This document shows, piece by piece, positions 51,538 through 52,704 of a DNA stretch of 64,000 nucleotides. The position numbers and the translations under genes were made by a program. Under the pieces are notes generated by a model, which made no database searches, was not told the DNA's origin, and saw only the letters and a list, made by a program, of their open reading frames with translations. Source of the stretch: Streptomyces sp. NBC_01591 (lineage in GTDB: Bacteria > Actinomycetota > Actinomycetes > Streptomycetales > Streptomycetaceae); the NCBI RefSeq assembly GCF_035918155.1, contig NZ_CP109327.1:868001-932000 (forward strand), in the 5' to 3' direction. Position 1 is the first letter of the stretch; every line of letters starts with the position of its first letter.

Positions 51538-52704
51538 ATGACCAGCACTCTCGAACACCCGCTGCACCAGCATGAGTTGACCACCGAGTCCGCAACCACC
51601 GCCAAGGCCACCGGGGCCGTCGGCGTCCTCGACATCACGCACCAGGGAAACGGCGCGCTGCGCGCCCGGGACGGCCGTCCCTCCCCCGGCGACGTACTGG
51701 TCCCGGCCGCCCTGATCCGCCGCCACGGCCTGCGCCGGGGCGATGCCGTCGAGGGGCTCTGCGACCGGCCTCGCACCCTGTCCAGCGTGGAGCGGGTCAA
51801 CGGCCGTTCCCCGCATGCGCTTCGCGGCCGGCCGCACTTCCGCGATCTCACCCCGCTCCACCCGAGGCAACGGCTGCGGCTGGAGACACCGTCCGGCGGT
51901 GCCGCGATGCGTCTCGTCGACCTGGTCGCGCCGATCGGCAAGGGGCAGCGCGGGCTCGTCGTCGCGCCGCCCAGAACCGGAAAGACGGTGCTGCTCCAGC
52001 AGGTCGCCGCCGCCGTCGCCGCCAACCACCCCAAGTGCCACCTGATGGTGGTGCTGGTCGACGAACGCCCCGAGGAGGTCACGGACATGCGCCGGTCCGT
52101 ACGGGGCGAGGTGCTCGCCTCGACGTTCGACCGGCCCGCGAAGGAGCACATCGCACTCGCCGAACTCGCGGTCGAACGTGCCAAGCGGCTGGTCGAGCAG
52201 GGCCAGGACGTCGTCATCCTGCTCGACTCGCTCACCCGCCTGTGCCGCGCCCACAACAACGCCTCCGCCGCAGGCGGACGCACCCTCAGCGGCGGCGTCG
52301 ACGCGGCCGCACTGCTCGGCCCCAAGCAGCTCTTCGGCGCCGCACGACTCGCCGAGGAGGGCGGCTCCCTCACCATCCTGGCCACCGCGCTGGTGGAGAC
52401 GGGCTCCCGTGCCGACGACTACTTCTTCGAGGAGCTGAAGAGCACCGGCAACATGGAACTCCGGCTCGACCGCGCCCTGGCGGACAGGCGCACCCATCCG
52501 GCCGTGAACATCCCGGCGTCCGGCACCCGGCGCGAGGAACTCCTCGTGCCGGAAGGCGAGTTGCGGGTGGTACGGGGACTGCGGCGCGCACTGCACGCCA
52601 GGGACCCGCGGACCGCGCTCGAAACGCTGCTGGACCGGATCCGCCACACCCCGGACAACGCGGCGTTCCTCCGTTCCGTCCACCGCACCGTCCCGGAAGC
52701 CTGA
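51538..52704 (+). CDS. rho: Short transcription terminator Rho paralogue
   Basis: A 388-residue hexameric ATPase of the Rho family, much shorter than the housekeeping Streptomyces Rho, which carries a long charged insert. The cold-shock domain (about 27-118) is present, but its RNP1, GFGFLR in E. coli, reads GNGALR here, losing both aromatic residues that grip RNA. The motor domain is intact: APPRTGKT (143-150), VDERPEE, LLDSLTR. Ser302 (LKSTGN) replaces E. coli Gly337, a position where Ser gives bicyclomycin resistance. The P-loop also has Arg-Thr for Lys-Ala. ATG 51538 has AAAGGA upstream; ATG 51514 is possible. It may be a drug-insensitive or regulatory Rho. Confidence 0.92.
   Translation: MTSTLEHPLHQHELTTESATTAKATGAVGVLDITHQGNGALRARDGRPSPGDVLVPAALIRRHGLRRGDAVEGLCDRPRTLSSVERVNGRSPHALRGRPHFRDLTPLHPRQRLRLETPSGGAAMRLVDLVAPIGKGQRGLVVAPPRTGKTVLLQQVAAAVAANHPKCHLMVVLVDERPEEVTDMRRSVRGEVLASTFDRPAKEHIALAELAVERAKRLVEQGQDVVILLDSLTRLCRAHNNASAAGGRTLSGGVDAAALLGPKQLFGAARLAEEGGSLTILATALVETGSRADDYFFEELKSTGNMELRLDRALADRRTHPAVNIPASGTRREELLVPEGELRVVRGLRRALHARDPRTALETLLDRIRHTPDNAAFLRSVHRTVPEA

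Follow-up and report, generated by a model that had tools for sequence, protein, structure and literature searches.

Identification of rho2 and its product

The window, a stretch of 64,000 nucleotides from Streptomyces sp. NBC_01591, carries a gene for a second Rho protein and a structured leader that precedes it (Table 1). The protein was named Rho2, a label coined in this analysis, and the other Rho of the same genome (10.25 Mb in 3 contigs, 96.97% complete) is referred to as Rho1. Aligned positions are numbered according to E. coli Rho (PDB 1pv4), while Ser302 is given in the numbering of Rho2 itself. The reading frame is open over 388 codons followed by a stop. An upstream GTG at 51472, in phase in this genome, was considered as start, but its phase varies in 19 orthologues (8, 5 and 6 over the three phases); as this phase is not conserved, the ATG at 51538 was kept.

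Rho2 matched the Pfam families PF07497 (Rho RNA-binding; 49.5 bits, cut-off 27) and PF00006 (ATP synthase alpha/beta nucleotide-binding domain; 87.7 bits, cut-off 29.5). A PDB search returned Rho chains, the best being 7oqh (E 1.5e-119), which we take to be M. tuberculosis Rho. Together with the placement in the tree described below, these matches bear out the initial annotation as a Rho paralogue. Among the NCBI models, the looser NF006886 was matched above its cut-off (473 bits versus 315), while the Rho equivalog TIGR00767 gave 480.9 bits for Rho2, below the curated cut-off of 509.45, and 659.3 bits for Rho1. Similarly, NF041509 (short form 'paralog_Rho2') scored 479.8 bits, below its curated cut-off of 628, and is, despite the similar name, a different family. 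The rho1 gene is located at C1:6010664 and its open frame, coding for a long N-terminal extension, comprises 799 codons. Rho2 is 60% identical to Rho1 over residues 28-386. A third Rho match in this genome was weak (E 1.8e-6, 26% identical).

Table 1. Features of the rho2 locus in the window
Feature	Position	Strand	Evidence
Structured C-rich leader, match to covariance model R1, reaching into the start codon	51420..51539	+	Composition, alignment, covariance model
Hairpin GGGGTG..CGCCCC of the leader, richest of its helices in compensatory changes across relatives	51467..51488	+	Alignment
Hairpin GTCC-GCGAAA-GGAC, containing the ribosome-binding site	51516..51529	+	Pattern in 80/98 Rho2 genes
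rho2, accessory Rho paralogue, 388 aa	51538..52704	+	ORF, own-genome Rho match, PDB and Pfam matches, Rho2 clade in tree
RNP1 remnant GNGALR, both aromatics gone	51646..51663	+	Alignment
P-loop PPRTGKT (K181R; T182 normal for Streptomyces Rho)	51967..51987	+	Alignment
Codon AGC, Ser302 = E. coli Gly337	52441..52443	+	Alignment to E. coli Rho

Residues of the drug pocket and the RNA site

Alignment to 1pv4 places Ser302 opposite Gly337, as had been claimed, and Met219 and Ser266 are indeed unchanged relative to E. coli Rho. Rho1 of the same genome has Gly337 (motif KGTGN), Lys181 in the P-loop (PPKTGKT) and NYAFIR at the place of RNP1, versus Ser337, Arg181 and an RNP1 devoid of aromatics in Rho2. 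The RNP1 had rightly been called defective: Phe62 and Phe64 of E. coli, Tyr and Phe in Rho1, are replaced by Asn and Ala, so that both aromatic contacts are gone against either reference. The description of the P-loop as altered stood in part. Only K181R is unusual; it is specific to Rho2, where 31 of the 103 rows have it, and lies at a position that is presumably near bicyclomycin or its pocket; Thr182 is normal, being found in 39 of 44 Streptomyces Rho1 proteins. Position 80, Tyr in both E. coli Rho and Rho1, is Leu, and the loop 102-110 is for the most part absent. Window Rho2 thus lacks all the classical primary-site aromatics at positions 62, 64, 80 and 110 (N, A, L and a gap).

Distribution and phylogeny of Rho2

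Rho matches were counted in 295 Streptomyces genomes at E 1e-50, with 6 candidates scored per genome. Two matches were present in 160 genomes, one in 133 and none in 2; the second match need not be a Rho2. All 45 second copies that were inspected in this sample (the 30 best, including the window copy, and 15 low-scoring ones) proved to be Rho2. From an order-wide sample of 293 genomes, 15 with two matches were re-inspected, and Rho2 was found in all 11 that belong to other genera, as well as in 2 of 4 Streptomyces; each of the remaining two has two Rho1 copies and no Rho2. Among 396 genomes sampled across the phylum, with 4 candidates scored for each, a second match at E 1e-80 occurred in three genomes outside the genus.

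A quick tree, with SH-aLRT values only, was built from 104 rows with column 337 omitted: 63 of 102 Rho2 rows left after thinning at 87.5% identity, 38 hand-picked Rho1 proteins, two intermediates and E. coli Rho. Rho2 occupies one side of a branch with SH-aLRT 99, or 100 with the two intermediates included. Judged from this tree, Rho2 is a single clade, present in Streptomyces and in related members of its order. The intermediates, L099 from Streptacidiphilus and L205 from a Kitasatospora plasmid, both carry Ser337 together with an RNA domain eroded in part, in which the aromatics at 62 and 110 are gone, Phe64 is kept and Tyr80 is kept in one. Because these two aromatics are already missing there, Ser337 need not predate the initial damage to the RNA site.

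L205 (6001-7149 of its record) is encoded on plasmid pKP058 of Kitasatospora purpeofusca, where this Rho paralogue adjoining the Rho2 clade is annotated as hypothetical. A Rho2 gene is also carried by the 616-kb plasmid p1 of Streptomyces angustmyceticus (L206, 6001-7083), hence the gene can occur on other replicons. Neighbouring genes were inspected for a functional clue: mutA-mutB-meaB is common to 2 of 14 flanked Rho2 loci (L063 and L064; some flanks are short), the others differ and no partner was inferred. Fifteen phage records (H41-H55), whose rho-like sequence is of the ordinary bacterial sort, matched at below 60% identity; most have ordinary bacterial hosts or none listed, and several are very short and unannotated. 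These were read as probable host DNA, and a phage origin of rho2 was discarded.

Some genomes deviated in their Rho complement. Streptomyces genome G233 (99% complete, about 30 contigs) gave no match to the Rho family model, through either a gap or a true loss; G017 has a weak Rho match only and G395 fragments only. Two Streptomyces genomes, G359 (L188, L201) and G403 (L189, L202), have two near-identical Rho1-type copies each. All four carry Asn266, at a site presumably linked to bicyclomycin resistance, and so do five Brevibacterium Rho rows (L116, L126, L131, L132 and L141) and L214.

Conservation of the motor and erosion of the RNA site

The catalytic residues K184, E211, R212, D265 and R366 are present in all 103 Rho2 rows, and residues 184, 185, 210, 211, 212, 265, 266, 269, 320, 323, 336 and 366 are invariant among them. 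At least 98% conservation was found for 122 of 281 motor columns in Rho2 versus 132 in Rho1. Fixed differences between the motors of Rho1 and Rho2 are limited to positions 140, 199 and 335, the rows having first been sorted by Leu335, which is therefore present in 103/103 by construction. For window rho2 and four close relatives, dN/dS was 0.19-0.25. The median over all pairs, many of them distant, was 0.35 for Rho2 (4731 pairs), slightly above the 0.29 for Rho1 (3907 pairs).

In the same 120 pairs from 16 genomes, the mean amino-acid difference in the RNA domain was 0.468 for Rho2 versus 0.031 for Rho1; for the motor, these values were 0.266 and 0.049. No Rho2 row has an aromatic at position 62 (0 of the 102 with a residue there), versus 113/113 Rho1 rows. 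Position 110 is absent in 98/103 Rho2 rows and aromatic in 106/113 Rho1 rows. Residual aromatics were seen in Rho2 at position 64 (26/102) and position 80 (8/102). An AlphaFold2 model obtained from a shallow alignment of 14 rows (mean pLDDT 67.1) was confident for the OB domain, with pLDDT 80-94 over residues 31-100; it was poor around residue 302, and no structure was therefore read at the drug pocket. At the level of sequence, the catalytic motor residues are conserved under selection and the primary RNA-binding site is largely dismantled, with residue 62 lost, the 102-110 loop mostly deleted and a short N-terminus.

History of positions 337 and 181

Position 337 is Ser in 74 and Gly in 29 of 103 distinct Rho2 rows, with no third residue. 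Among 239 database Rho2 proteins, 187 have Ser and 52 Gly (one further protein was without a readable motif). Ordinary Rho1 rows invariably have Gly337 (113/113; Ser337 in 0/113). Going by these counts, Ser337 is no chance slip in the Rho2 clade, yet it is not fixed. Parsimony put Ser337 at the base of the clade, followed by approximately 14 reversions to Gly. These 14 changes are the most in any of the 55 columns with two states in the range 120-417; across all 298 columns, 69 change at least as often, so the rate at 337 is not exceptional. Ser337 is encoded by AGC in 70/70 rows with DNA and Gly337 by GGC in 21/29, one transition apart. The surrounding positions 336, 338, 339, 341 and 342 did not vary in 65 rows. 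The confinement of 337 to two residues is more in keeping with a tolerated or fluctuating trait than with fixed resistance. Position 181 (Lys or Arg) changed 11 times in the clade, tied second among the two-state columns after 337. The search for residues covarying with 337 gave a best raw p of 0.0007 among several hundred tests, uncorrected.

The rho2 leader

The 200 nt upstream of rho2 are C-rich and G-poor. The mean of C minus G was 0.168 (sd 0.041) and was positive in 98 of 98 leaders, which are related to one another; control regions upstream of other genes in the same loci, derived from rough gene calls, gave -0.007 (sd 0.081), and 0.168 was reached by 1 of 53. In the window itself, the best 80-nt stretch of the leader was equalled by 3% of windows of this length, taken from either strand; the single case is thus not extreme, the consistency across leaders is.

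Conserved hairpins were found in alignments of 19 and 26 leaders, which comprise 45 of the 57 prepared; more divergent ones were omitted, and 5 had earlier been skipped for a different second codon. A four-helix structure was evaluated on a 16-row alignment. Following shuffling, which leaves relatedness in place, 88.8% of the cells were paired versus 92.1% in the actual alignment (0/500 as high), and 2.0 pairs were changed on both sides versus 5 (1/500 as high). When slid along the alignment, the structure was paired in at most 52.4% of cells, a comparison that favours the unslid structure since it was drawn from this alignment. Folded alone, the leader of window rho2 was no better than shuffles (z -0.40; 66/200 as good), so the structure rests on the alignment. 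Single-sequence folding of eight leaders gave four at z -2.4 to -3.3. A helix around the ribosome-binding site, GTCC-N-GGAC, is present in 80 of 98 genes, and many of the 18 without it are early-branching members.

A covariance model, R1, found one copy in the genome of the window (150 of 17,555 candidates scored). Applied to 59 sources, it matched 24 of 37 Rho2 leaders at E <=0.01, only the window being in the training set and the rest being relatives, and 32 of 37 at E 1, versus 0 of 20 Rho1 leaders, some with short upstream flanks. Four further matches elsewhere had E 0.77-0.94. Rfam gave no match up to E 1 in 51100-51700. From these sequence data we infer that the leader is a cis-acting control element of rho2, the simplest form being Rho-dependent attenuation, with translational masking as an alternative or an addition; it may instead act as a DNA operator.

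Bicyclomycin and cyclodipeptide synthases

Residue 337 of the pocket is changed to Ser in window Rho2, as in E. coli mutants carrying G337S, which we take to be a bicyclomycin-resistance change, and a lower bicyclomycin sensitivity of this copy is plausible. The initial annotation had raised self-resistance of a bicyclomycin producer. A search for cyclodipeptide synthase (CDPS), using a model that detects it in 106 of 295 genomes of the genus, gave 0 matches in the genome of the window. Moreover, CDPS is rarer in genomes with two Rho copies (42/160) than in one-Rho genomes (64/133), with an odds ratio of 0.38 and a p of 0.00014 in a test that ignores relatedness and for an enzyme whose presence is not diagnostic of bicyclomycin. 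For this genome, self-resistance next to a bicyclomycin cluster was therefore rejected. Since the paralogue was retained through about 14 losses of Ser337, resistance cannot be the sole job of Rho2. These repeated reversions, along with the absence of any positive association with CDPS, disfavour resistance as its conserved purpose.

Discussion

The explanation that we consider probable is an accessory Rho paralogue in which the motor has been kept and the primary RNA site dismantled, with altered loading, reduced drug sensitivity and control through its own leader. Rho2 would form an ATP-driven hexameric ring that pulls RNA. It would not be loaded at classical C-rich rut sites via the primary site, and may be loaded by way of the central channel, a partner or other RNAs. 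Ser337 would narrow the bicyclomycin pocket; compared with Rho1, the window copy is probably less sensitive to the drug, a long-standing trait that the clade can do without. Expression of rho2 would be limited by the structured C-rich leader, through Rho-dependent attenuation, masking of the ribosome-binding site or both.

Part of the evidence could also be read in terms of a drug-tolerant backup, Ser337 enabling Rho2 to work under bicyclomycin made by neighbours and to replace inhibited Rho1. We hold this to be unlikely. A basal Ser337 that is seen in 74/103 rows would fit such a role, as would K181R in 31/103, presumably near the pocket, but the approximately 14 reversions to Gly, the absence of CDPS from this genome and its negative association in the genus argue against it, and a Rho with such an eroded RNA site is unlikely to stand in fully for Rho1. 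In a passage of PMC6934819, bicyclomycin is described as inactive on Streptomyces though S. lividans Rho is sensitive in vitro, an observation that a tolerant second Rho could account for; the same passage proposes export or a dispensable Rho instead. Colony growth of S. lividans was likewise unaffected by bicyclomycin according to a section of PMC3765725.

Quite unlikely, in our estimate, is a modulator whose subunits would enter Rho1 rings and damp or redirect them, the motor and interface appearing alike and the RNA site weak. The 60% identity to Rho1 and the mere three fixed motor differences (140, 199 and 335) agree with mixed rings; catalytic residues would be dispensable for a mere modulator, yet they are invariant. 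That rho2 is a decaying duplicate without function is highly improbable. Rho2 does evolve faster than Rho1 and only part of the genus has it, but no internal stop was present among the genus and order survey matches listed, 122 of 281 motor columns are conserved at >=98% (132 in Rho1), dN/dS is near 0.2 in close pairs and the leader is conserved.

A more elaborate and speculative model, which we rate as improbable, combines the leader with the pocket. Rho1 would terminate transcription within the C-rich rho2 leader; once Rho1 is inhibited by bicyclomycin or becomes scarce, read-through would turn on rho2, whose Ser337 ring would still work, independently of rut, on different RNAs. Lineages no longer meeting the drug would revert to Gly337 and retain the switch to sense Rho activity.

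A second Rho with a pocket change is widespread, and its natural Ser-type and Gly-type orthologues make the effect of this change directly testable. A Rho motor whose primary RNA site was separated from it in evolution offers a natural test of the need for that site, and the leader provides a concrete handle on the timing of second-Rho production.

Comparison with known Rho systems

According to a passage of PMC8269248, a 2021 paper that cites the review by D'Heygere et al. 2013, rho duplicates are frequent in Actinobacteria, and one S. lividans duplicate is, like Rho2, a second Streptomyces Rho with altered bicyclomycin-binding and RNA-binding domains, which the paper interprets as possibly poor drug sensitivity and altered RNA binding. 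As a duplicate with both changes has already been published, Rho2 is not new in kind. The S. lividans duplicate likely belongs to the Rho2 clade; no S. lividans sequence could be recognised by name among the best 120 database matches. The passage in PMC8269248 was the only mention of a Streptomyces rho duplicate found in the literature search, and SCO7051, a guess at the S. coelicolor gene, was dropped as no paper was found. The leader, the distribution and the reversions to Gly come from the present analysis and are absent from that passage. What is new here is the C-rich, structured noncoding rho2 leader with compensatory base-pair changes, which suggests control by attenuation.

The housekeeping Rho1 of the same genome shares the motor of Rho2, at the identity given above, and differs by its long N-terminal extension, Gly337 and an intact aromatic RNA site. 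M. tuberculosis Rho, as described in part of PMC8828861, is another actinobacterial Rho with a natural pocket change, being bicyclomycin-resistant through Met495 (E. coli Leu320) with an associated cost in motor efficiency. In contrast, Rho2 keeps Leu320 in 103/103 rows and is changed at 337, in a paralogue. Finally, a section of PMC12350095 reports that B. subtilis rho is regulated by Rho-dependent attenuation; like rho2, for which such control is proposed only, it is a rho gene controlled through its 5′ leader, whereas conserved hairpins characterise the rho2 leader, which is that of a paralogue.
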